From: Bradyrhizobium genosp. L
Lineage (GTDB): Bacteria > Pseudomonadota > Alphaproteobacteria > Rhizobiales > Xanthobacteraceae
Direction of reading: 5' to 3'
Assembly (NCBI RefSeq): GCF_015624485.1
Contig: NZ_CP061378.1
Coordinates: 5,890,001-5,954,000 of the forward strand
Length of the DNA: 64,000 nucleotides
Shown: in pieces, positions 4,144 through 19,718 of the stretch
Position numbering within the stretch: position 1 is the stretch's first letter
Layout: every line of letters starts with the position of its first letter
Program-made: the position numbers and the translations under genes
The notes under the pieces: generated by a model
The model's database searches: none
What the model saw: the letters and a program-made list of their open reading frames with translations, nothing else
Told to the model about the DNA's origin: nothing

Positions 4144-5439
4144 ATGGTCGAACCGATCATGTACGCGGCGATCGGTTTCCTGATCTCGATGCTGTGCGGA
4201 CTGATGATCGTGCCGCTGGTGCACAACCGCGCGGTGCGGCTGACGACGCGCCGCCTGGAAGCCGCCACCCCGCTGTCGATGGCCGAGATCCAGGCCGACA
4301 AGGACCAGCTCCGCGCCGAATTCGCGATGTCGGCGCGCCGGCTCGAGATGAATGTCGAGCAGCTCAAGAACAAGACCACGAGCCAGCTCGCCGAGCTCGG
4401 CAAGAAGACCGACGCGATCAACCGCATGAAGATCGAGCTCGGCGAGAAGAACGCCGCGATCTTCGCGTTCGAAGCGCGCGAGAAGGCGGTCAAGCAGCAG
4501 CTGCGCGCCACCGAGGAGGAGTTTTCCGCCAAGGGGGAGCTGCTGCGCAGTGCCGAGCAGGCATTGAGCGACAAGCAGGCCGAGCTCGGCAAGATCAACG
4601 CCGAGCTCAGCGACCGCTCCATGACGGCCGACACCCGCCAGATCGAGCTGGTCGCGGTGCGGACCCAGGTCGAGGAGTTGAGGAGCCGCGTCGGCGAGGC
4701 CGAGAAGGAATTTTCGGCGACCCAGGCGCGCCTCCTCCAGGAGCGCAGTCAGTCGGAGACCGCGACGCGCGACCTCACGGACGCCCGCGGCCGGGTCGAG
4801 AATCTGAGCCAGCGCGTCACCGATCTCGATCGCCAATTGATCGTCCAGGTCAAGGAAGCCGAGATGCTCGGCAACCGCGTCAACGACCTCGAGGGCCGGC
4901 TTGCGACCCAGGGCAAGCTACTCACCGAGCGCGAATACGAGAACGGCCAGCTCAAGCAGGCCAATGCCGCCGCCGAACGCACCTTGCAGGAACTGCGCGA
5001 GGAGATCGCAGCATCGAGCGGGGGCAAGTCGTCCGCGCTGGAGAAGCTGCGCCAGGAGAAGGCCGCGGTCGAGGAGCAGTTGCGGGCCGCGCGCGACGAG
5101 CGCGGCAAGTTGCAGCGTGACATCAACGCGATCCAGCAGCAGGCGGAAAGCTCCTGGGCCACCGAGCGGATGGAGAACGCGCTGCTGCGCGAGCGCATCA
5201 ACGACATCGCTGCCGAAGTGGCGAAGCTCGCGATCCAGCTCGAGGGGCCGAATTCGGCGATCGAGGCGATGCTGGCGGCCGAGCCGACCGTACCGGCCAA
5301 GGCCGCCGCGAAGCCGGTCAACGGCACCGCCAATGGCGCGTCTGCGGCGAGCAGCCCGCCGGAAGGTGGCGGCACCCTGGCCGAACGCATCCGGGCGCTG
5401 CAGTCCCACGCCTCCCGTGCCCGCCAGCAGGGCGCGTGA
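4144..5439 (+). CDS. Membrane-anchored coiled-coil protein, unknown function
   Basis: 431 residues. Residues 6-26 (YAAIGFLISMLCGLMIVPLV) are one N-terminal transmembrane helix. About 300 residues of almost unbroken heptad-rich, Glu/Lys/Gln/Ala-rich coiled coil follow, and then an Ala/Pro-rich tail with GGTLAERIRALQSHA at the end. A ribosome-binding site (ggtggag) lies 8-12 nt before ATG 4144. The layout, a short anchor plus a long cytoplasmic coiled coil, suggests a scaffold, polar or division-related protein, but nothing in the sequence fixes this. Gene-length coiled coils can match myosin or SMC proteins spuriously, so no function is assigned. Confidence 0.75.
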   Translation: MVEPIMYAAIGFLISMLCGLMIVPLVHNRAVRLTTRRLEAATPLSMAEIQADKDQLRAEFAMSARRLEMNVEQLKNKTTSQLAELGKKTDAINRMKIELGEKNAAIFAFEAREKAVKQQLRATEEEFSAKGELLRSAEQALSDKQAELGKINAELSDRSMTADTRQIELVAVRTQVEELRSRVGEAEKEFSATQARLLQERSQSETATRDLTDARGRVENLSQRVTDLDRQLIVQVKEAEMLGNRVNDLEGRLATQGKLLTEREYENGQLKQANAAAERTLQELREEIAASSGGKSSALEKLRQEKAAVEEQLRAARDERGKLQRDINAIQQQAESSWATERMENALLRERINDIAAEVAKLAIQLEGPNSAIEAMLAAEPTVPAKAAAKPVNGTANGASAASSPPEGGGTLAERIRALQSHASRARQQGA

Positions 5440-5555
5440 TTTCGCGTGCTCCCGGCTTGACACCGCTACCCGGCACTTCGTAAATCGCACGCTCTGACCC
5501 AGCGCCTTTTCGACCGGCCCGCCGACCAAGACGGCCTGTCGCACCGTCAGATCCC

Positions 5556-5630
5556 GGACGCATAGCTCAGCGGGAGAGCGTTCCCTTCACACGGGAGAGG
5601 TCCAAGGTTCGATCCCTTGTGCGTCCACCA
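5556..5630 (+). tRNA. tRNA-Val (anticodon CAC)
   Basis: A complete cloverleaf can be drawn: acceptor GGACGCA/TGCGTCC, D stem GCTC/GAGC, anticodon stem TTCCC/GGGAG with loop TTCACAC (anticodon CAC), T stem CAAGG/CCTTG with loop TTCGATC, and an encoded ACCA end at 5627-5630. Its 3' half is the attachment site for the islands that follow. Confidence 0.96.
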
Positions 5631-5635
5631 TTAAC
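5583..5635 (+). repeat. Attachment-site repeat, left copy (inside the tRNA-Val 3' half)
   Basis: The 3' half of the tRNA plus five downstream bases is repeated exactly at 12745-12797 (53 bp). A 48-bp version (5584-5631) recurs at 6896-6943. This is the signature left by tyrosine-recombinase integration into a tRNA 3' end, where the tRNA is restored by the incoming DNA and the old 3' end is pushed downstream. Confidence 0.92.
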
Positions 5636-5895
5636 CCCTTGTTTTAAGGGTTTTTTGCTGCCCGCTTTAGTTCCAATGTGCGTTTCGTTGCTTTTTCGAG
5701 CGTCAGAATACGCTAGATTGGCCCAAAATCCGCCCACTCGAATGCTCGCAAATTGTTGCCGCAGACGCGCGAGAACGTTAAGGCGCTTTCGCTCAATGAC
5801 TTGTGGAGCTCGCAATTTTTGAAATGAGGTCGGGCGCTCTTCGTAGGATAGGGAGAGGTCAAAGGCCTAGTATCTGTGGCGATCTACCCTGCGGA

Positions 5896-6165
5896 ATGTC
5901 CATGGCGGCGCTCGTTCACGAGATATGGGAAGACGAAGATGAAGACAACATTATCGAGGGCGTGTGTCTTGCCGGCCCGGACGGCGATGATTTCCGCAAG
6001 CTCCTCAGTAGCAGGGCGAGGTGCGTCCACCGATTTGAGGCTGGATGCCATTTTGAGGCTATGACGATCTACTATCGCCTATATAGCCGGGGCATCTACA
6101 CTTCTGATTTTGCGGCGGATCACGAGCCCTATCCAGAGGATTGGGCTCAGCGACAAGCGAGTTAA
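5896..6165 (+). CDS. Small protein of unknown function (island 1)
   Basis: 89 residues from ATG 5896 (MSMAALVHEIWEDEDED...); the same frame is open upstream to a GTG at 5803, so the start is uncertain. The protein is acidic at the N-terminus and has a central GPDGDDFRKLL segment. It ends with a Tyr/Asp/Pro-rich tail (YSRGIYTSDFAADHEPYPE). There is no signal peptide and no membrane segment. I recognise no characterised domain. The gene sits 51 bp upstream of another unknown gene in the same orientation, inside the att-flanked 1.3-kb island. The context is that of accessory cargo; an immunity or regulatory role would be a guess. Confidence 0.6.
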   Translation: MSMAALVHEIWEDEDEDNIIEGVCLAGPDGDDFRKLLSSRARCVHRFEAGCHFEAMTIYYRLYSRGIYTSDFAADHEPYPEDWAQRQAS

Positions 6166-6216
6166 TGTGCTTGAAATGGACACGTTTGGGCAACGTGTGG
6201 ATGGGTGGGTCTAGGA

Positions 6217-6744
6217 ATGTCCGACAAGGTCCGCATCCAGTACAACCTTGGTCAACACGGTTGGTCGCGTTTCCAACTAGTCGTCGGCGCAACCTCAGTC
6301 GTTGTCGGCCCTTTCGGTTACTGCACGGATGCGTTGGGCGATCTCGTTCGCGCGGCGCTTATGATTGCAACTTCAGCATCGCGAGCAGAAGTCTCCCTTG
6401 ACGCCGAGCCCATGGAATGGCGATTAGTCGCCGGACCATATTGGAATCCCACCCAATCAAGCTGGACTGATTTCCGCCTTCGCGTCCTGACCTTTCAGTA
6501 TCTAGCCAACCCACCTTCCCCGGACGCGGAAGGTATTTGTTTGCTCGAAGCCCAATGCTCGCCGGAAGACTTTGCCCGTGCGGTCCTAGAAGCCGCGCAG
6601 GCGATCTGGGATGAGTACGGTGCCGACGGCTACGACAAGGCGTGGGGTGGACCGTGTGGATTTCCGCTTCGAGCATTGCATGCCTTGAAGACGGCTATGT
6701 CAGTTCCGGAGCCTCGGACTGGTTGGCTGAATTCGAGTTCCTGA
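6217..6744 (+). CDS. Protein of unknown function (island 1)
   Basis: 175 residues from ATG 6217; an in-frame GTG lies four codons upstream. The protein is soluble and starts with a beta-rich region (RIQYNLGQHGWSRFQLVVGA). A Trp/Tyr-rich middle (EWRLVAGPYWNPTQSSWTDFRLRVLTF) is broken here by a short turn, and a C-terminal helical part contains FARAVLEAAQAIWDEYG. The size and composition resemble small solitary immunity-type proteins, but I do not recognise the family. It follows the 89-residue gene and is the last gene before the second attachment repeat; about 150 bp of AT-rich, gene-free DNA follow. Confidence 0.65.
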   Translation: MSDKVRIQYNLGQHGWSRFQLVVGATSVVVGPFGYCTDALGDLVRAALMIATSASRAEVSLDAEPMEWRLVAGPYWNPTQSSWTDFRLRVLTFQYLANPPSPDAEGICLLEAQCSPEDFARAVLEAAQAIWDEYGADGYDKAWGGPCGFPLRALHALKTAMSVPEPRTGWLNSSS

Positions 6745-6895
6745 CGCTTCCGCAAGCAGAGAACGCATCGCCATTTGTCGCGCCTGAATCCACCTAGGAA
6801 TGCACTCTAAGGTCGTCGCCCAAAAAACGCCCAACCGACGCGCTCTGAGAAAAATATCTATTATATTTCAATAGCTTATAATTAGCTTTACAAGA

Positions 6896-6943
6896 CCTTC
6901 ACACGGGAGAGGTCCAAGGTTCGATCCCTTGTGCGTCCACCAT
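6896..6943 (+). repeat. Attachment-site repeat, middle copy
   Basis: 48 bp identical to 5584-5631, covering the anticodon-loop to CCA part of tRNA-Val plus one base. The downstream flank (taccgg) differs from that of the other two copies, so this copy belongs to a separate integration event. It divides the insertion into two tandem islands. Confidence 0.92.
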
Positions 6944-7163
6944 ACCGGACAAGCTACGACTCCCCCAGCTCGTTAGTTTAGCAGCCATTCCAGCCTCAGA
7001 TATCCGACTGACGACGCTACGTAACTGAACCTGAGTTCATACTGCGGCCCGCGCTCGTGCGAGTTCTATATCTTTAGAGTCTTTCCGACTTTGTCTGAAT
7101 CGGGGATTCCCAAATCAGGTGAGCTCTGATTCAAGCTTCCTGCTGGGACGGAGGCCAGCAAGG

Positions 7164-7538
7164 ATGGCGCGAGCATACTCACTGGATCTGCGTGAGCGTG
7201 TTGTTGGGTTGGTTGCAAGTGGCGAAACGTGCCGGGCGGTGGCGGAACTGTATGACGTCAGCGTTGCGAGCGTCGTGAAATGGTCGCAGCGGGCGCGAGC
7301 GACAGGCAGCGCGGCGGCCAGGCCGATGGGCGGCAGGCGGCCTTACCTGCTGGAAGGTGAGCGCGACTGGCTGCTGGCTCGGCTGACCGCGAAGCCTGAT
7401 CTGACCCTGCACGCGCTGTTGGCGGAGCTTGGGGAGCGCGGCGTCGTAGTGTCCTGCGACACGCTCTGGCGATTCCTCAAGCGCCAAGGCATCAGCTTCA
7501 AAAAAAACCGTGTTCGCGACAGAGCAGGATCGTCCTGA
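7164..7538 (+). CDS. IS630 transposase, upstream frame (DNA-binding part)
   Basis: 124 residues from ATG 7164 ([17 protein letters not shown]). It contains the helix-turn-helix typical of IS630 transposases ([20 protein letters not shown]), then a second winged-helix-like part with [22 protein letters not shown], and ends soon after the frame leaves the transposase reading at an eight-A run (7500-7507). With one A fewer, the frame would read straight through into the catalytic part as [14 protein letters not shown]. Transcriptional or ribosomal slippage on the A run probably makes the full transposase, as reported for other IS630 elements; a decayed copy is the alternative. Confidence 0.82.
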
Positions 7539-8106
7539 CATCGCGCGCCGCCGGGCCTGGTGGAGACGACACCAGTCGAAAATCGATCCTGCTCGTCTCG
7601 TCTTCATCGATGAGACCTGGGCAAAGACCAACATGGCCCGGACCCATGGCTGGTGGCGACGGGGCGCCCCTCTCAGGGCTCAGGTCCCGCACGGCCATTG
7701 GCGGACGATGACCTTCCTCGCAGCACTCCGGCACGACCGTATCGCGGCCCCCTGCGTCATCGACGGGCCGATCAACGGCGAGAGCTTCCGTGCCTATGTC
7801 GAGCAGTTGCTGGTGCCAACGCTCCAACCCGGCGACATTGTCGTCATGGACAATCTCGGCTCCCACAAGGGCCAAGCTATCCGCACGGCCATCCGCGCCG
7901 CGGGCGCCCGGCTCGTCTTCCTGCCGCCCTATAGCCCCGACCTCAATCCGATCGAGCAGGTCTTCGCAAAGCTCAAAATCCTGCTCCGCAAGGCTGAAGA
8001 ACGCACCGTCGACGGCGTCTGGCGTCGCATTGGCAGTCTTCTCCAACACTTCACACCGCAAGAATGCGCAAACTACCTGCGCAACGCAGGATATGCTTCT
8101 GTCTAA
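7510..8106 (+). CDS. IS630 transposase, downstream frame (DDE catalytic part)
   Basis: About 198 residues in the +1 frame relative to the upstream transposase frame. The three catalytic acids are visible: Asp in RLVFIDETW, Asp in [13 protein letters not shown], and Glu in [16 protein letters not shown], the classic IS630 DDE triad with the PIEQ motif. The C-terminus ends at the inverted repeat. It has no ribosome-binding site of its own, so it is most likely expressed as the second half of a slippage product starting at 7164. Confidence 0.85.
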
Positions 8107-8415
8107 ATCGGAAAGGCTCTAGTCACCGCTGGACCCGCCGCTTCCGTAGGCCGAGCTTTGCCGCAATCCCTCGAAGGCAGCGCTTCTTCAGCTTCGTCCC
8201 ACGAACAGGTTTGCGGTCAACGCTCCGCGACGATCTGCGAGCATGGCTCAGCGAACCTGATTGGCAGCTCGCCCTCCTAGTAGTGCACGGGGGTCGGAGC
8301 GCCCCTTACCTCTCGCCAATTTCGAAAATTTTCTGGACTCCTTATATCTAATAATTTAGAGGATATATTATACGATAATATACGGATAGGAATTCAAGCA
8401 CAAAGGAGAAGATAA

Positions 8416-8673
8416 ATGCTTGAAAAATCTGCTGGACAGAAGGATTCAGCAAAAAATATCAAGCGCGAAAAGTTCGTCGAACTAGCGGAAAGCCGTACAA
8501 TCAACGCCATCAAGGCTATCCGCGTCATCGGCAAATTGGGGAACAAAAATGCCTACCAATTTGACGACTCGGACGTAGCCAAAATTATCCGAGCTTTGAG
8601 CAAGGAAGTCGAAGCCTTGAAAGCCCGGATGTCCACAACCGGCGGAAAAGAGTCGGTGGAGTTCAAATTGTGA
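8416..8673 (+). CDS. Small helical protein upstream of the ATPase gene
   Basis: 85 residues, charged and mostly helical, with no signal or membrane segment. The first half is basic (KNIKREKFVELAESRTINAI, here cut at 20), followed by IRVIGKLGNKNAYQFDDSDV and a C-terminal coiled-coil-like helix (IIRALSKEVEALKARM). A strong ribosome-binding site (aaaggag) sits 9 nt before the ATG, and an AT-rich promoter-like stretch (8330-8400) lies upstream. The stop codon is 34 bp before the GHKL ATPase gene, so the two are probably cotranscribed. I do not recognise the family. It could be a regulator or a small subunit of the ATPase/methyltransferase system. Confidence 0.7.
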   Translation: MLEKSAGQKDSAKNIKREKFVELAESRTINAIKAIRVIGKLGNKNAYQFDDSDVAKIIRALSKEVEALKARMSTTGGKESVEFKL

Positions 8674-8706
8674 TGTACGGTTCTCACTAACGGGGGGTTG
8701 CAATCA

Positions 8707-11232
8707 ATGACGAACGGCCAGATTCGGGACCTTTGTCTCGCGCTTCTGCATGCTGAATCTGAAGATGAAGCGATCACGGTGCTGAAGGAGGCGGGATATT
8801 GGGACAAGCCTGAACTCTGGCGGCACTACGGGGACTTGGAGAACAACTGGGGCACCGGCGGCAACCAGCAGAGCCTTGCCGAGGCGGCCCTCGCCGAGAA
8901 GTTAGTGAACTCGGTGGACGCCCGACTCATTAACGAGTGCCTGGTGCGGAAAATCGACCCCAAGAGCAAGGAAGCGCCCCAGAGCATTCCGGCCGCGGTC
9001 GCGGCTTTTTTCGAGGAGCCGGGTAAGAAGCAGACGAGCGGCCTCATCGAGAACTGGACCGACGACCGCATCCGCAACGTCGCGCAGGGCATCACGCTCA
9101 CCGCCACCGGCACGCGCCCGACCCTCAATCTCACCATCGCGGACGTGGGCGAGGGTCAGAGCCCTCGCAGGCTGCCGAACACGATCCTGTCGCTCAGCCG
9201 GTCGAACAAGATGTATATCAAGTTCGTCCAGGGACAGTTCAATCAGGGCGGCGCGGGCGCGCTGCGCTTCTGCGGTCAGCGCAATCTCCAGCTCGTCATC
9301 AGCCGCCGTAACCCGGCGCTGCTCGGCCCCGATCCTGACGACATCGACAAGCAGTGGGGCTTCACCATCGTGCGCCGCGAGCGCGCGTCCGAAGCGACCG
9401 ACGGCCGCAAGAACTCGATTTTCACCTACCTCGCCCCGGTTGGGGTCGGCAAAGCACACGAGCCGCGCAACGGCGACGTGCTGGCGTTCACCGCGGCAAC
9501 GATGCCCCTGTTCCCGAATGATGACGAGCCGTTCGGCCGCGAGACCGGCTATGGCACCGCCATCAAGCTCTACGAGTACCAGTACATCGGCGAACGTTCG
9601 AACATCATCTTCGGCAAGCGTGTCATCTTGCGCCGTCTCGAGCTGTTGCTGCCGGAGGTCGCGTTGCCGGTGCGCTTGCACGAGTTTCGCAAAAACCCCG
9701 CCGGCAAGGTGCTGCCCAAGGGTAGCCGCGAGACCACGCTTGTCGGCCTGCGCCGCCGTCTGGTCGATAACGAGAATGTCGAAGCGGGATTCCCGATCAC
9801 GCTGAATTTCTCACCCAAGGGTGAGAAGCTGATCGCCGACGTGTTCGTGTTCAAGCCGGAGGGCACCGAGCGCGACGATGACGAGGAAGAAGGCAAGGAC
9901 CGCAAGAAGCTGGGTGGCATCAAGTCGTATCGCAAGCGCGAGGGCGTCGTGTTCGTCCGTAACGGTCAGACGCAGGGCAGCCTGCCGCGCGACTACTTCA
10001 AGCGCGAAACGCTGAAGCTCAAGTCGATCGCCGAGGACATGCTGGTTTTCGTGGACTGCGACCAGATGAGCCCGGACGTTCGCGAGGATCTGTTCATGCC
10101 TTCGCGCGACCGCCTCGCCGACATTGCGTTTAAGGCCGAGCTTATCGATTCCCTCGATCAGGCGCTCAAGGCCGATGAAACGCTCAAGCAACTCCGCAAC
10201 AAGCGGCAGCAGGAGCGCGTGTCCGAGCAGTTGAAGGACGACCGCCCGCTCAACGATGTATTGCAGACCCTCATCAAGAGTTCGCCCAACCTGACCCAGC
10301 TCTTGCAGCTCGGCCAGCGCATCTCCGCACCGTTCAACACGGTGATGGTATCGAGCCATCCGGAGGAGCCGTTCAAGGGCGAGATTTACCCGACTTTCTT
10401 CAAGACCAAGAACGTTGAGTACGGCAAGGTCTTCAAGCGCATCGCGCCGATCAACCAGCGCATGAAGTTCACATTCGAGACCGACGCGCGCGACGATTAC
10501 TTCCGCCGCCGCATTGAGCGTGGCAACTTCTCACTGATCTACGTGGACAAGAAAGGCAACGAGCAGGACTGCTCATATGTCGGGCCGAACCTGAAAAGCG
10601 GGATCGCGTCGGTCATGGCGAACTTGCCGGACGACGCTGAGATCGGGGATGTCATCAAGCTCATTGCCCGGACCGACGACCCGCACAGCACGTTCGAGAA
10701 TGTCATCGAAGCCACGGTGAAGCCTGCGACCGAGACCCAGCCGGGCGGCGGCGGCACCCGCAAGCCTCCGCAGAACAAGCCCGGCAACGACCGCGAAGCG
10801 CCGCGTCAGCTCTCGACGCCCGCGATCAAGCGCGTATTCCGTGAGGAATGGGAAACGCAGAACCCGCCGTTCAACGAGTGGACCGCCATGCGCGTCGATG
10901 TCGCCGGCTACGACGCGCAGGAGAACGAAATCTACGAGTTCAAGATCAACATGGACAACACCCCGCTCTTGAACGAGATCAAACAGCGTAAGCTTGAGGA
11001 CATGACCGCGCGCAATCAGTTCCTCTACGCGAATGTCCTGGTCGGTTTGTCCCTGCTGCTCCAGGACAAGCAGTCGCCGGAGAACAACGACGAGAACGCG
11101 CCGTCGATCGAGACGCGCATCGAGGAAACGACGCGAGCGATGGCGCCGTTCATACTCGCGCTGACTGGCCTCGGCCAGCAGGACTTGTCCGAGGGTGATG
11201 ATCTCGACGGACTTGAAGCTGCGACGGGCTGA
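8707..11232 (+). CDS. Large GHKL-type (Hsp90/MutL-like) ATPase, candidate defence protein
   Basis: 841 residues from ATG 8707, preceded by a run of G (8692-8697) that can serve as ribosome-binding site. The N-terminal third shows a GHKL ATP site: N box EKLVNSVDAR (Glu64, Asn68, Asp71), G1 box IADVGEGQSP (Asp146, Gly148, Gly150) and a Gly-rich lid FNQGGAGALRF (about 178-188). A long middle region without a recognisable domain follows, with charged segments (RDDDEEEGKDRKK). After a Pro/Gly-rich linker (about 685-700) comes a C-terminal domain with IYEFKINMDNTPLLNEIK and YANVLVGLSLLLQ. GHKL proteins act as ATP-driven clamps (MutL, MORC, Hsp90, topoisomerases). Its convergent partner is a DNA methyltransferase on the same island, which suggests a DNA-sensing defence role. 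I know of no named system that fits exactly. Confidence 0.8.
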   Translation: MTNGQIRDLCLALLHAESEDEAITVLKEAGYWDKPELWRHYGDLENNWGTGGNQQSLAEAALAEKLVNSVDARLINECLVRKIDPKSKEAPQSIPAAVAAFFEEPGKKQTSGLIENWTDDRIRNVAQGITLTATGTRPTLNLTIADVGEGQSPRRLPNTILSLSRSNKMYIKFVQGQFNQGGAGALRFCGQRNLQLVISRRNPALLGPDPDDIDKQWGFTIVRRERASEATDGRKNSIFTYLAPVGVGKAHEPRNGDVLAFTAATMPLFPNDDEPFGRETGYGTAIKLYEYQYIGERSNIIFGKRVILRRLELLLPEVALPVRLHEFRKNPAGKVLPKGSRETTLVGLRRRLVDNENVEAGFPITLNFSPKGEKLIADVFVFKPEGTERDDDEEEGKDRKKLGGIKSYRKREGVVFVRNGQTQGSLPRDYFKRETLKLKSIAEDMLVFVDCDQMSPDVREDLFMPSRDRLADIAFKAELIDSLDQALKADETLKQLRNKRQQERVSEQLKDDRPLNDVLQTLIKSSPNLTQLLQLGQRISAPFNTVMVSSHPEEPFKGEIYPTFFKTKNVEYGKVFKRIAPINQRMKFTFETDARDDYFRRRIERGNFSLIYVDKKGNEQDCSYVGPNLKSGIASVMANLPDDAEIGDVIKLIARTDDPHSTFENVIEATVKPATETQPGGGGTRKPPQNKPGNDREAPRQLSTPAIKRVFREEWETQNPPFNEWTAMRVDVAGYDAQENEIYEFKINMDNTPLLNEIKQRKLEDMTARNQFLYANVLVGLSLLLQDKQSPENNDENAPSIETRIEETTRAMAPFILALTGLGQQDLSEGDDLDGLEAATG

Positions 11233-12439
11233 CCGTCGCCTTCCGGTGAAAAAGAACAACCTCCTGCGAGCCAGGAGTTTCGCCGCGTTGCATGCTGTAC
11301 CAGCGGCGTCCCGGCACGCTACGCCAAAGTCTACCGTCTGCCTCCTGGGCCAGAACGGGCAGCGTCATTTCTGAAAGGCCACAAGCCTCCATCGCGTCCA
11401 GATAGCGCGCGAGCTGCCTACGGGCATCCGAGAACGCGATCATCTGGACGATGGTGGTGTCCTTGTTGGCGAGCGCCGCTACGGACGACATCGATGCCTT
11501 GATGTTCGCGAAATAGCTATCGAGTTGCGGATTCTTGCGGTCGCCCATCGTGTAATAGCTCGCGCCCGAACCATCGAGCTTGTTCGCGATCATGAAGGGC
11601 AGCGGCGTTTCCTTGCGCCCATCGACCTGCCAGCGGTGATACAGAACGTGGACGCCGGGATATGGCGGTGACGTGACCACGAGCCGAGGGGCGCGCATGC
11701 CTCGAACATTGTCATCGTGTTCAATGCCAGCGGTACTTCGCCGCAGGACTGTCACGCCTTGACGCCCATTCGCTTTCACGGCCGCGCGCAACTCCCGCGC
11801 CCCCTGCACCATGTCTTTCGCGGTATCCGTCAGGACGCGACGGAAGTCTTCAATGGTCGCTTGTTTACTTCTGCCGTCTAGCGCCCATTGTGCAGACCGC
11901 AGGACCACGCAGCGCCCAAAAGACTCCAGGCGCGGAGTACCGAGCTTCATTGCGCTCGCGATCGATTGCTCGATCGCCTTGCGCATGCGCCAACGGTCGG
12001 GGTGATCCAGATGCTTGTAGTAACCGAGGTCTTCATAGTCCGACAGCACGACGGACGGACGGTGGATATCCACCGATCTCGCCACCCGGTCGGACCACCA
12101 ATCGAGCCGATCAAGTTCGGCTTCGGAGTAAATCGTGCACTTCACAGTCGAGACGAACTCGGCGAGCGTGCTGATGTCAACGCCCATGCCTTCGCGCCCC
12201 GCGGCGAGCGCTTCGACGACCGTTGTTCCGCCGCCGACATGCGGATCGAGCACGAGATCGCCGGGATTAGTGAACGCTCCTATAGCGGCGCGGGCGAAGA
12301 CGGGTGAGAAGCGAGCAGGGTATTTGTAGAAGCCGTGTGTCAGTCCCCGGACGGGCTCCGTCGTGCGCGCAGCCGCTACCAATGCGCTCTGCGCATCGTC
12401 AGACAACTGCAAGTAGCGCTTATTCCGAGATTCATGCAT
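11150..12439 (-). CDS. DNA amino-methyltransferase (N4-cytosine/N6-adenine type)
   Basis: 429 residues. The SAM-binding motif I is LVLDPHVGGGTTVVEAL (residues 62-78), preceded by a motif X-like HGFYKYPARFSP. The catalytic motif IV is TSPPY (256-260), which marks an exocyclic-amino DNA methylase. About 180 residues lie between motifs I and IV, room for a target-recognition domain, as in alpha-class order (X-I-TRD-IV). The stop lies inside the 3' end of the convergent ATPase gene, an 83-bp overlap, and the basic tail after FHRKA may be non-conserved. No restriction nuclease gene is adjacent. Its likely job is to mark host DNA, with the GHKL ATPase as sensor or effector; an orphan methylase is the alternative. 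Confidence 0.85.
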   Translation of the reverse strand: MHESRNKRYLQLSDDAQSALVAAARTTEPVRGLTHGFYKYPARFSPVFARAAIGAFTNPGDLVLDPHVGGGTTVVEALAAGREGMGVDISTLAEFVSTVKCTIYSEAELDRLDWWSDRVARSVDIHRPSVVLSDYEDLGYYKHLDHPDRWRMRKAIEQSIASAMKLGTPRLESFGRCVVLRSAQWALDGRSKQATIEDFRRVLTDTAKDMVQGARELRAAVKANGRQGVTVLRRSTAGIEHDDNVRGMRAPRLVVTSPPYPGVHVLYHRWQVDGRKETPLPFMIANKLDGSGASYYTMGDRKNPQLDSYFANIKASMSSVAALANKDTTIVQMIAFSDARRQLARYLDAMEACGLSEMTLPVLAQEADGRLWRSVPGRRWYSMQRGETPGSQEVVLFHRKATVSPSQLQVRRDHHPRTSPAGRGQSARV

Positions 12440-12744: not shown

Positions 12745-12797
12745 CCCTTCACACGGGAGAGGTCCAAGGTTCGATCCCTTGTGCGTCCACCATTAAC
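12745..12797 (+). repeat. Attachment-site repeat, right copy
   Basis: 53 bp identical to 5583-5635 (tRNA-Val 3' half through ccaccattaac). It most likely represents the original chromosomal end of the tRNA gene, displaced by the islands, and marks the right boundary of the inserted DNA. Confidence 0.92.
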
Positions 12798-13338
12798 TCA
12801 GCGAAATCAATCGATTGTCGGACCGAGATGTTCTCCGCCTTGCTGTGGAGCGGGCGAAACAACCTGATCAGAGCGGTACGAACATGCGCAAAATCGATGG
12901 AGGCTATCGATACTCAGCCACTCACGACGGTCTGGCTGCAGGTTCGGCTCCTGCCGGACCACCGATAAATCGACGGCTTCGTCCGCGCGGCACAACCGAC
13001 GTCGGATTTTTGCAAACACAAGTGGTCGCTACTGGCGATCCGCACGAGACCATGTTGAGGTCACGAAATTTCGTAGTCGTTTTGCCGACCGGCCGCGACT
13101 CCGATACGTCTTGGATCGTATTGCCTCAGCTTGAGCACATCGGAATGGCATCGGCAAAAAATTGTCGTTCAGCAAAGAGGCGTCTCAAAATATAAATTTT
13201 TCCTTGCTTCATAATTGATCTGTGAACCAACGCATAAAGTCTGCGGCGGAAATATGGCAAGAACTTTCCGTCGAGACTTCCCGCTGACCAGCGTTCCTCA
13301 AGACCAGACGGAAAGTCGGCAGAGCGTTGGGGGCTCAA
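12798..13338. other. Gene-free interval right of the islands
   Basis: 541 bp with no frame I would call a gene. The frame at 12815-13195 lacks a ribosome-binding site and any recognisable domain. The 3' part (about 13185-13240) is AT-rich and may hold the promoter of the operon starting at 13339. Confidence 0.5.
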
Positions 13339-15867
13339 ATGAACGCTGTCGTTTTCAATACGGCTCGCCGTGACCAGCGGCGATGGCTACGCCACAGGGC
13401 CGTCTATTATGTTCTCATTCACGACGGCGATACGTTCGTCCCGAACGCCCGCCTCACATCGATCGTCCTTGATAACGGCGCGCTGATCGTCGGCGGAACG
13501 CCGATCTACAACGCCCGGTTCACGGCGGATCACATTGCTTGGGTCCAGCAGAGCGCGGGCCTGTACTCGGCCGGCCACATCTATCTCCATGGCGAAGGGC
13601 TGAACGCGCACGGCGTGGTCTATCAGGGCACGTCGCGCGCGGATGCCGTCAGCCATGACTTCATCGGGACGAGCATCAAGCCTGCCGCCTACAGGACGGC
13701 GGTCACGACCTCCGCCTACCCTGATTCCAGCGATCACCCGGCGGTCCCCTCGAGCGATTGGCGGGCCGGACCCGAACTCGCGATCGGCTACGAGATGCGG
13801 GTGGGGTTTACGATGCCGGAGCCCGTCGTGGCGCTGGGCGGTCGCGACGTCACGCGTTTCGCGACCTGGTCGGTCGACGCCAAGGGCGAAGCACTGCTGT
13901 TTCTTGCGCTGGACGACGCCGCATGTGCGGCGCTCGGCCCCGATGCGCCGAGATCGGCTTGGCTGGCGTTTGATATCTCCAGCCCGCATCCGACAGGCGC
14001 CGGCGCCGTCACGGCATGCTGCGGACCGACACCGCCGCCGGGACAGCGTTTCCTCTTCACCGCCACTCCGGTCGCGGAGACCGCGAGGCTCGCGATCGCG
14101 CCGCTGAGGAGCATCCCGCGCGAAACGCTGACCGCCGCCGTCGGCGCGCTGACCATCGCCGATCTCATGACGATCCTGCCCGACGACACCGTCACCGACT
14201 ACGCGCGAGCGGCCCTGTTGCGCAACATGAAATGGGCGATGGGACAGGACGATACCCAGCGCGACTGGCTGGACAAATTTCTCGGCCAGATTCCGCCGAC
14301 GATCGAGTCCACAGAGGCGACCGATCTCATTCGCAGCAGTCTGTCATGGTATCAGAGTGACTTCGCCAAGGCCTACCTGACCGAGATGTTTCAGAAATAC
14401 GACGGCCACGACGTTCCCGAATATCGGCGCCTCAACGATCAGCAGGCCGCGAAGCTGGATGAATATTTTGTATCCGGTCTGGCGGCGTCGGCCGACTACA
14501 GCAAGCAGCAGAGCGGCCTCTATGTCGAGGCGTTCCGCACCAGCCTTCCGGCCATCAACGCGTATCTCTCCGATGGTCCCGGCGGGGGCGAGAAATGGGC
14601 CCAGGCGCTGTTCGAAAAGCTGACCGACGGCGCTCAATTCACACTGATGGTCAATCGGGTGGCGGGAGCGCTGGGCGACAAGGCGGCGATGGCGCCCGTG
14701 AACAATTTCGCATCGCTTCTGACCGCGCTGCAGCCCGACGCGACGCTGGCGCGATCCTATTTCAAATCGATCCTGACCGGAACCGTCACAAAGCTCGCGC
14801 CCAAGGCGATCCATTCCGACAAAGACATGATCATGCAATGGCTTCCATCGGCGCTGGAAGCGATACTGCGGCATTTCGCCGATCACGACGGCGACAGGCC
14901 CGACGGCGTCGACATCACCGAGCAAGAAGCCAAGGACATGCTGGACCTCTATTTGAAGAGTCCGGCCGATATCAGTTCCGCCCTCGGCGACTTGATCGCC
15001 AAAGTGATCGCGAGCGACCTGCTCGATCAGATCGTGCAATTGGAAGACCAGTTCGGCAGCATCGCCGAACGCTGGCCCGCCTTCGCGAAGGCGTCGAAAC
15101 TGTTGTTCGCCCTCGGCTGGATCGGCAGCGTCAGCAACATTCTCGTGATCCTGATCAAGGGCGATTGGTCGAAGATGACCGACGTCCAGAAGGCCCAGTT
15201 CGTGACGGACTTCGCAAAGACGACGTTGGACGGGTTCGACGCCGTGCCCGAAATCTACAACGGGGTGAAGTCGATCACGGTCAAGGTCTGGAGCAGGGCG
15301 ATGAGCGAAGCCAACGCGCCCGAACTCCAGATCGAGATGCAGTCGATTTCCGAACAGGCCCTGGACGGAGAGGACCTGGTCGTCGCCGTTGCGAATGAGG
15401 TGAGCCCGCTGCTGGAGGCTGGTGCGGCCGAAACCAGCGCCTTCGCAAGGATATTCGCCGAGGGCGTCGTGAGCGGCGTCGTCAAGATCTTCGGCGCGGT
15501 CGCAGCGCTCGCGATGGCCGGCTATTCGCTTTGGCAGGCGATCAAGGACATCGAGGGCGGAAAGGGCGTCACCATCATCGTTCTCGACTTCCTGATCGTC
15601 ACGGCGAATCTGGTGAGCGCGGGACTCCTGATCGCAGGCTTGATGACCGCCACCAGCATATTTCCGCCTGCCGCCGCGCTCGCAGCCCTCGCCGGCGCGA
15701 TTCTGTCGATCATCGAGGTGTCTCTGGAACCGCCGCCACCGAATCCGATTGACGATTTCATGAAGGATGTCGGCATTCCGTGGGTCGATGCGTACAGCTC
15801 GCCCTTGACCACCAAGCAGCCCTCGCCTCAGTTGATGCGTTTGGCGCGGACGGGGTGGGCCCGATGA
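13339..15867 (+). CDS. Large protein of unknown function with C-terminal hydrophobic hairpins
   Basis: 842 residues from ATG 13339; a TTG four codons upstream is also in frame. The N-terminal third is beta-rich with no signal peptide. The middle (about 280-640) is alpha-helical and charged, with a short hydrophobic stretch at KLLFALGWIGSVSNILVILI. The last 150 residues contain two or three strongly hydrophobic segments (VVSGVVKIFGAVAALAMAGY, TIIVLDFLIVTANLVSAGLL, AAALAALAGAILSIIEVSL), then a Pro-rich tail. This build, a soluble body with late hydrophobic hairpins and no leader, recalls pore-forming or membrane-inserting effectors, but no family is recognised. It is the first gene of a three-gene operon joined by ATGA overlaps. 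Confidence 0.7.
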   Translation: MNAVVFNTARRDQRRWLRHRAVYYVLIHDGDTFVPNARLTSIVLDNGALIVGGTPIYNARFTADHIAWVQQSAGLYSAGHIYLHGEGLNAHGVVYQGTSRADAVSHDFIGTSIKPAAYRTAVTTSAYPDSSDHPAVPSSDWRAGPELAIGYEMRVGFTMPEPVVALGGRDVTRFATWSVDAKGEALLFLALDDAACAALGPDAPRSAWLAFDISSPHPTGAGAVTACCGPTPPPGQRFLFTATPVAETARLAIAPLRSIPRETLTAAVGALTIADLMTILPDDTVTDYARAALLRNMKWAMGQDDTQRDWLDKFLGQIPPTIESTEATDLIRSSLSWYQSDFAKAYLTEMFQKYDGHDVPEYRRLNDQQAAKLDEYFVSGLAASADYSKQQSGLYVEAFRTSLPAINAYLSDGPGGGEKWAQALFEKLTDGAQFTLMVNRVAGALGDKAAMAPVNNFASLLTALQPDATLARSYFKSILTGTVTKLAPKAIHSDKDMIMQWLPSALEAILRHFADHDGDRPDGVDITEQEAKDMLDLYLKSPADISSALGDLIAKVIASDLLDQIVQLEDQFGSIAERWPAFAKASKLLFALGWIGSVSNILVILIKGDWSKMTDVQKAQFVTDFAKTTLDGFDAVPEIYNGVKSITVKVWSRAMSEANAPELQIEMQSISEQALDGEDLVVAVANEVSPLLEAGAAETSAFARIFAEGVVSGVVKIFGAVAALAMAGYSLWQAIKDIEGGKGVTIIVLDFLIVTANLVSAGLLIAGLMTATSIFPPAAALAALAGAILSIIEVSLEPPPPNPIDDFMKDVGIPWVDAYSSPLTTKQPSPQLMRLARTGWAR

Positions 15868-19205: not shown

Positions 19206-19718
19206 TTATGCACCGAGGCCACTCTCACGCAGCCGCTCGGCGAACCACAGCGATATCGGCCGCTCGATGACGCCTCCCGCATAGATCTCCGACGCGCCGA
19301 CCCCGCTCCGTCCGAGTGTCACGAGCACGCCGGCGGCATAGGCGAACCAGACGTGCGGATCGGTCAGTGCCTGCAGCTTATGCTGATCGTGCTCGATCGG
19401 CTGGTGGTTACTGCCCTTGCGGACTTCGATCGCGAGCAGATTGTTGGGAATCTCGCGCTGATGCACCACGATGTCGGGATAGACCGACTTGCCGAGATGG
19501 TCGTCGGTCGAGACGATCGAACCGCGCGGCAGCCGCAGCGTGCGTTCGCCGAGCCGGTCGTAGTTGCAATCGACCTGCCAGCCGGAAAACTGCCGCTCGA
19601 TCTGCACCGCGAGGCGGTGAGTGAGCGTTCGCTCGCCGAGGTCGCGCTCCAGCAGGAACTTGTCCTGCCCGTAAAACTCCCTCAGCGCGGCGATCACCTT
19701 GTTCAGCTCGGTCTGCAT
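19206..19718 (-). CDS. Conserved-type unknown protein with a possible PD-(D/E)XK nuclease fold
   Basis: 170 residues, soluble. The central part reads SVYPDIVVHQREIPNNLLAI followed by EVRKG. A Pro-Asp at the end of a strand and an Ile-Glu-Val-Arg-Lys on the next strand are the spacing and pattern of the PD-(D/E)XK nuclease core, although Lys is one position later than in the textbook ExK. Helices before (LTHRLAVQIERQF) and after (EHDQHKLQALTDP) fit such a fold. No partner gene suggests a job; it is next to, and codirectional with, a TPP enzyme gene (50-bp gap). The nuclease idea is inference and could be wrong. Confidence 0.6.
   Translation of the reverse strand: MQTELNKVIAALREFYGQDKFLLERDLGERTLTHRLAVQIERQFSGWQVDCNYDRLGERTLRLPRGSIVSTDDHLGKSVYPDIVVHQREIPNNLLAIEVRKGSNHQPIEHDQHKLQALTDPHVWFAYAAGVLVTLGRSGVGASEIYAGGVIERPISLWFAERLRESGLGA

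Follow-up and report, generated by a model that had tools for sequence, protein, structure and literature searches.

A mobile three-gene set of a GHKL ATPase, a DNA amino-methyltransferase and a small conserved protein in Bradyrhizobium genosp. L, a candidate restriction-modification-like defence system

Locus organisation

The window, which here means the whole stretch of 64,000 nucleotides of Bradyrhizobium genosp. L contig NZ_CP061378.1 that was analysed, carries three adjoining genes. These encode a small partner protein of 85 aa, probably helical (8416..8673, forward strand), a GHKL ATPase of 841 aa (8707..11232, forward strand, with the ATG at 8707 and the stop at 11232) and a DNA amino-methyltransferase of 429 aa (11150..12439, reverse strand). 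The methyltransferase gene is convergent with the ATPase gene and overlaps it at its 3' end by 83 nt. The original prediction, made from the sequence alone, had described this arrangement on an att-flanked island, and coordinates, protein families and motif conservation agree with it, including the 85-aa ORF in front of the ATPase.

The genes lie within a 5.9 kb cassette between the second and the third copies of the 3' end of tRNA-Val. The first, left copy (5583..5635, forward strand) sits inside the tRNA-Val(cac) gene itself, at the 3' end of the gene (5556-5630). The middle copy forms the left end of the cassette (6895..6947, forward strand; 91% identity over 53 nt, with an identical core of 43 bases), and the right copy (12745..12797, forward strand) matches the left one with 100% identity over 53 nt. 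When the one-contig genome of 7.4 Mb was searched for the 43-base core with up to 3 mismatches allowed, it turned up at 3 sites, all of them at this island. The cassette also carries, as a passenger, an IS630-type transposase whose two reading frames overlap (7119-7538 and 7510-8106; 7119..8106, forward strand; PF01710, 8.8e-08, and DDE_3, 3.3e-34). No integrase was found among the island ORFs scanned. The GC content is 0.47 in the 85-aa gene and in the stretch before the right att copy, compared with 0.66 in the 5.5 kb to the left of the island.

Three further features surround the cassette. A second att-flanked piece of 1.3 kb (5636-6894) has a low GC content (0.54) and two ORFs (120 and 179 aa), neither of which has a significant match in Pfam. 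To the right of the island, an 846-aa ORF (13327-15867) has no match in Pfam, NCBIfam or PADLOC. About 7 kb from the cassette, a 170-aa protein (19206-19718) matches PADLOC PD-Lambda-3_A (E 2.9e-21) and has no Pfam match.

The encoded proteins

The ATP site of the ATPase is complete, as had been read from the sequence. The N-box EKLVNSVDA (residues 64-72; 8896..8922), the G1 box DVGEG (residues 146-150; 9142..9156) and the G2 box GQFNQGGAGA (residues 176-185; 9232..9261) are all encoded on the forward strand, and E64, N68, D71, D146, G148, G150, G176 and G181 are invariant in an alignment of 76 rows, as is NGQ in the S5 domain (residues 419-421; 9961..9969, forward strand). In the AlphaFold model (pLDDT 81; 57.2 for an earlier model built from 29 similar rows), residues 43-505 form a GHKL+S5 module with the fold of Hsp90, MORC and MutL, and the structures of similar fold include MutL and MORC. 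The three boxes and this predicted fold together place the protein among the GHKL + S5 ATPases. Pfam and NCBIfam missed the GHKL domain in the window ATPase, for which the fold supports the assignment, and a distant homologue exceeds the Pfam HATPase_c_3 cutoff. A sequence search against solved structures gave nothing significant. The module is followed by a beta-rich part (residues ~565-672) and a C-terminal part of strands and helices (~706-822). We claim no fold class for residues 565-822 because the listed fold matches span 43-505 and barely test the rest. The C-terminal part holds the motif INMDN (residues 747-751; 10945..10959, forward strand), of which N748 is nearly invariant.

The methyltransferase belongs to the Pfam family N6_N4_Mtase (PF01555, E 1.5e-11). 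Motif I, DPHVGGGTT, lies near the N-terminus (residues 65-73; 12221..12247, reverse strand) and motif IV is TSPPY (residues 256-260; 11660..11674, reverse strand); D65, G69-T73 and all of motif IV are invariant in 16 of 16 sequences. A TSPPY motif favours m4C. We regard m4C as the likely, not the settled, product base because the DNA cytosine-N4 methyltransferase 8s9m ranks first among solved structures matched by the methyltransferase profile (1.1e-10), followed by other enzymes and by adenine enzymes.

In the alignment of the small protein 17 columns are invariant, and all 16 rows have F83 and L85 at the C-terminus or close to it. No solved relative was found below E 0.19. An L7/L12-like domain was rejected, as the Ribosomal_L12 matches were weak (E 0.0014, below the cutoff) and confined to 5 of the 16 members, and a HepT-like assignment was likewise set aside (7 of 16 members, E 0.016 or worse). 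Some boundaries of the small protein, methyltransferase and ATPase sequences were trimmed to the aligned start.

Co-occurrence of the three genes

Joint presence in other genomes had earlier been set as a test of the prediction, and all three genes were found together at 23 distinct loci, mostly in Alphaproteobacteria. This number comprises 21 loci (duplicates merged, L092 added) and 2 on viral contigs (L096, L097). Duplicates were counted once (L055 with L014, L056 with L003, L091 with L012); L063 and L064 coincide with L016 and L015, and L095, whose ATPase is 100% identical to that of L060, was likewise counted once. A pattern scan based on the ATPase alignment, using one genome per species for 84,980 species, gave 13 confirmed loci, and 398 genomes of the phylum gave 3 matches, the window genome included. 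Every one of the 16 loci found through the ATPase (the window and 15 others) holds the small protein gene, the ATPase gene and a methyltransferase gene convergent with it. No other ORF cluster recurs in more than 2 of these 16 loci, some of which have short flanks.

The search was also run from the methyltransferase. Its profile gave 8 full-length matches (E < 1e-199) and 2 fragments in 296 genomes of the family, the next best match in any of them being partial at 7.5e-16. A small gene and a GHKL ATPase lie beside all 8 full-length methyltransferases. Neither gene was present in the 10-16 kb fetched around the two fragments (L061, L062), and the three weaker matches that were followed (L065-L067) are generic methylases without the ATPase.

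Homologues of the ATPase, with close ones in Bradyrhizobium, numbered 1658 among 7996 scored candidates. From these numbers and the conserved gene order, the ATPase and its neighbours are not a chance arrangement of ORFs; the three genes form a real, conserved and mobile system. Compared with type II restriction-modification (R-M), the system has the DNA methyltransferase (PF01555, with motifs I and IV) and no recognisable cognate nuclease, as no nuclease family was found in the small protein or the ATPase and no further gene is conserved. This is in line with the original reading, which saw no classical restriction nuclease.

Exchange of ATPase types

At least five ATPase types occur among the 23 loci. 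Type I is found at 15 loci, the window included, type II at L016, type III at L058, type IV at L057, L059 and L060, where the protein is split between a GHKL gene of 355-360 aa and a gene of 609-612 aa, and type V at L092, L096 and L097. Within a clade of 11 loci, the ATPase type differs in 42 of 55 pairs, and in those 42 pairs the methyltransferases are 62-83% identical, the small proteins 58-82% and the ATPases 17-38%. These identities reject a fixed pair of methyltransferase and ATPase. Since at least five ATPase types stand beside methyltransferases this similar, the two appear to be exchanged independently of each other. The methyltransferase has been exchanged too, because L057 and L060 have the small protein and ATPase in common (98%) while their methyltransferases are 70% identical.

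Across 21 loci, pairwise identities of the small protein and the methyltransferase are correlated (Spearman 0.80), and those of the ATPase with either partner are not (-0.02 with the methyltransferase, -0.02 with the small protein). Among type I loci alone, all three pairwise identities are coupled (0.61-0.81). A constant module of methyltransferase and small protein, with the ATPase alone being swapped, would fit the 21 loci; it fails inside the 11-locus clade, where the small protein tracks neither partner clearly (0.18 with the methyltransferase, 0.30 with the ATPase). On a tree of 20 methyltransferases, which covers four of the types (L092 not included) and has 4 of its 17 inner branches starred, the ATPase type labels need 5 changes (minimum 3), and shuffled labels need 4.9 on average. 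The starred branches force at least 3 changes for type I and at least 2 for type IV, and L014 (type I) and L057 (type IV) are sisters at 99/100.

Because the ATPase types diverge so far while the methyltransferase stays so similar, the ATPase is unlikely to recognise the site, and we infer that sequence recognition resides elsewhere.

Genomic surroundings and distant relatives

Three copies of the three-gene set lie on viral contigs, and L096 carries phage tail and head genes. Near the set at L006 are HamA and HamB (3.2e-88 and 8.9e-249; Hachiman) and a ThsB-like gene (4.5e-55; Thoeris). L011 has an insertion (8233-9980) that separates the small gene from the ATPase and encodes a D12 adenine methylase and a NotI-type nuclease; this locus also carries a Vsr gene. 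These Hachiman, Thoeris and R-M neighbours are examples from 10 chosen proteins, 5 of which have a PADLOC match. The L006 sequence, an Oceanobacillus record, groups near the alphaproteobacterial copies, and its assembly is possibly contaminated or misnamed. Adjoining the type IV set at L060 is a 455-aa ORF (4311-5678) with a sub-threshold match to the CAP12/Pycsar TIR family (PF10137, E 0.012) and no PADLOC match.

The ATPase matched in 7 of 289 genomes of the class, the window genome included, and the window genome and G139 carry the three-gene set. In G728 (L078, 7988-12507) the ATPase relative lies between a C5 methylase (PF00145, 3.9e-37) and Cas2 with a partial Cas1, and in G930 (L081) it is convergent with an amino-methylase (PF01555, 1.3e-29). 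The relative in G727 comes after a small gene and is cut close to the end of its contig; those in G844 and G795, each beside a small gene, are truncated or broken. Three of five plasmid relatives (L017, L018, L020) have SspB, SspC or SspD no more than 7 kb away, and the other two have no recognised modification gene nearby. Other candidate effectors are also near the SspBCD-type loci (SIR2 and DUF262 in L017), and L020 has a HEF_HK protein, just under the Pfam cutoff, near its ATPase relative. L018 and L020 both have a further GHKL protein beside the Ssp-linked relative. An Ssp-type ATPase profile gave no more Ssp-linked relatives in 297 genomes of the order, where it matched only the window genome, G287, G1155 and G1078, each of which carries the three-gene set.

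A single-protein search found no ATPase in phages, and a search of viral contigs with profile A8 found two distant relatives. One distant relative (L094, 9992-12412) lies on a 597-kb viral contig with no recognised modification gene nearby. For the methyltransferase, 8 of 15 matches on viral contigs count as clear relatives at E 2e-44 or better, with L095, a repeat of L060, among them; the other 7 (L103-L109) are weak (E 2e-6 or worse) and were left out. ATPase sequence adjoins 6 of the 8 (in tandem in L100, a fragment in L102) and the small gene 3 of the 8. The remaining two, L099 (4009-5181) and L101 (3091-4527), encode methyltransferase relatives at 43% and 38% identity without the ATPase; both contigs are short and carry genes for phage replication (DNA polymerase, DnaB). 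Such methyltransferases could serve phages in marking their own DNA against systems of this kind.

Proposed function

We consider it likely, judging from the sequence comparisons, that the three genes form a compact, mobile, R-M-like defence in which the methyltransferase marks self and an ATP-driven clamp is the exchangeable effector. The amino-methyltransferase, probably an N4-cytosine enzyme, would mark its site in host DNA, partnered by the small protein. The GHKL+S5 ATPase would act on the restriction side, as a dimer of the Hsp90/MORC/MutL type, gated by ATP, that closes on unmarked DNA and blocks it. The methyltransferase, with or without the small protein, is the more likely component to recognise the site, and it would recruit or license whichever ATPase is present. 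The ATPase might act on DNA by its own (hidden) cutting, by recruiting a host nuclease or by entrapment without cutting; restriction by cutting is unsupported, because no nuclease was found. Counted against the R-M-like reading are the ATPases without a recognised modification gene noted above (2 of 5 plasmid relatives and the 597-kb viral contig), the viral methyltransferase relatives, 2 of 8 without the ATPase and 1 of 8 (L100) tandem instead of convergent, the small protein that follows neither partner clearly within the 11-locus clade, the other candidate effectors near the SspBCD-type loci and the exchange of the methyltransferase shown by L057 and L060.

A bolder version of this model, which we hold only tentatively and think more doubtful than not, makes the methyltransferase the sensor and the exchangeable GHKL clamps nuclease-free effectors that would entrap or silence unmarked DNA. 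Exchange of either the clamp or the methylase would create new pairings, and the system would be a prokaryotic counterpart of MORC silencing.

Alternatively, the ATPase itself may be a nuclease with a fold unrecognised from sequence, located in the C-terminal part with INMDN, making the set an ATP-dependent Type II-like R-M system. This C-terminal part is conserved, and paraMORC3/Shedu proteins have a nuclease C-terminal to their GHKL module (VcSduA, in the available part of PMC12137116). We nevertheless find this alternative unlikely: a scan that covered every ATPase type with one or more proteins met no Pfam nuclease, there are few conserved polar residues elsewhere than in the ATP site (R467, T592, D593 and N748 among them), and the C-terminal part has no conserved nuclease-like cluster of acidic or His residues. 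The earlier suggestion that the C-terminus may be the effector part is thus unproven.

That the set is an epigenetic or DNA-maintenance module on mobile elements, acting in gene regulation or in a manner like mismatch repair and not in defence, is improbable. In its favour, the fold neighbours include MutL and MORC, and Iyer et al. (2008, PMC2292703), in the part of the paper available, suggest that some such GHKL proteins were recruited for repair; the sporadic presence (3 of 398 phylum genomes, the window genome among them), the exchange of the effector and the mobile or defence-gene surroundings at some loci speak against it. Least probable is addiction or abortive infection, with an ATPase toxic unless the methyltransferase marks host DNA and the infected cell killed instead of the phage DNA, for which the compactness of the set, its place on att-flanked DNA and on viral contigs, and the methyltransferase fragments without ATPase (L061, L062) can be cited, and against which stand the lack of any toxin domain found and the remnants L079 and L080, where a small gene and a broken ATPase lie without this methyltransferase, a state that a strict poison would disfavour.

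Comparison with known systems

GHKL+S5 ATPases of the MORC and paraMORC1-5 groups have been predicted in R-M operons, mostly with helicases, and a minority of these operons have a methylase or nuclease and no helicase (Iyer, Abhiman and Aravind 2008, available part of PMC2292703). Like these operons, as far as that part describes them, the window has a GHKL+S5 ATPase beside a DNA methylase in a mobile and sporadic set; unlike them, it has an 85-aa partner and ATPase types exchanged between conserved neighbours.

The signature comparison spans MORC and paraMORC2-5; paraMORC1 is marked by a conserved C-terminal extension of its own. The MORC S5 motif GhXhhpXXRhl occurs in 0 of the 76 aligned ATPases. 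The paraMORC2 signature is an ExxxH in the C-terminal S5 part, and the only ExxxH of the window ATPase is at residue 36. For the PD-(D/E)xK domain (DUF4263) of paraMORC3 and Shedu I-D, the window ATPase has no Pfam or PADLOC match. No paraMORC4-type TIR domain is fused to it or encoded by a conserved neighbour; the sub-threshold match next to the L060 set (E 0.012) and the ThsB TIR gene some 5 kb from the L006 set are the cases seen nearby. The C-terminal HxH of paraMORC5 is absent from the window ATPase and occurs after residue 480 in 2 of the 76 rows.

Among described defence systems, VcSduA (Shedu type I-D) needs its N-terminal GHKL ATPase for anti-phage activity and is a system alone, with a C-terminal DUF4263 nuclease fused to the GHKL module, according to the part of PMC12137116 available; the window ATPase is without a recognised DUF4263. 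HEF_HK proteins, related to paraMORC, have been reported near R-M systems (available part of PMC8011034). Like SspBCD phosphorothioation, as the accessible sources present it, the window set would combine a DNA-modification module with a separate effector, and distant ATPase relatives lie near SspB, SspC or SspD on 3 plasmids; unlike it, the modification would be made by a methyltransferase, and the SspBCD effectors those sources name are SspE and SspFGH, not GHKL proteins. The methyltransferase as self-marker recalls BREX as outlined in the same sources, whereas none of the five window proteins scanned matches BREX (PglZ, BrxC etc.) in PADLOC.

The original prediction called the system undescribed. 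This stands insofar as the ATPase and the small protein match no named PADLOC model, and, among the matches listed from the open-licence literature in its available parts, we found no described GHKL-methylase defence system and no description of this three-gene set. As regards the kind, the word goes too far, since R-M operons with GHKL ATPases were predicted in 2008 (Iyer et al., PMC2292703, as available); the three-gene set is a further variant of that kind. In the portions of the literature searched, we found no explanation of what a GHKL ATPase does beside a methylase with neither helicase nor recognisable nuclease. The window set is a minimal case of this question, with two or three proteins, and its natural swaps separate recognition from effector, which makes the question directly testable. 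The set is relevant, too, to the proposal that eukaryotic MORC proteins originated in bacteria.
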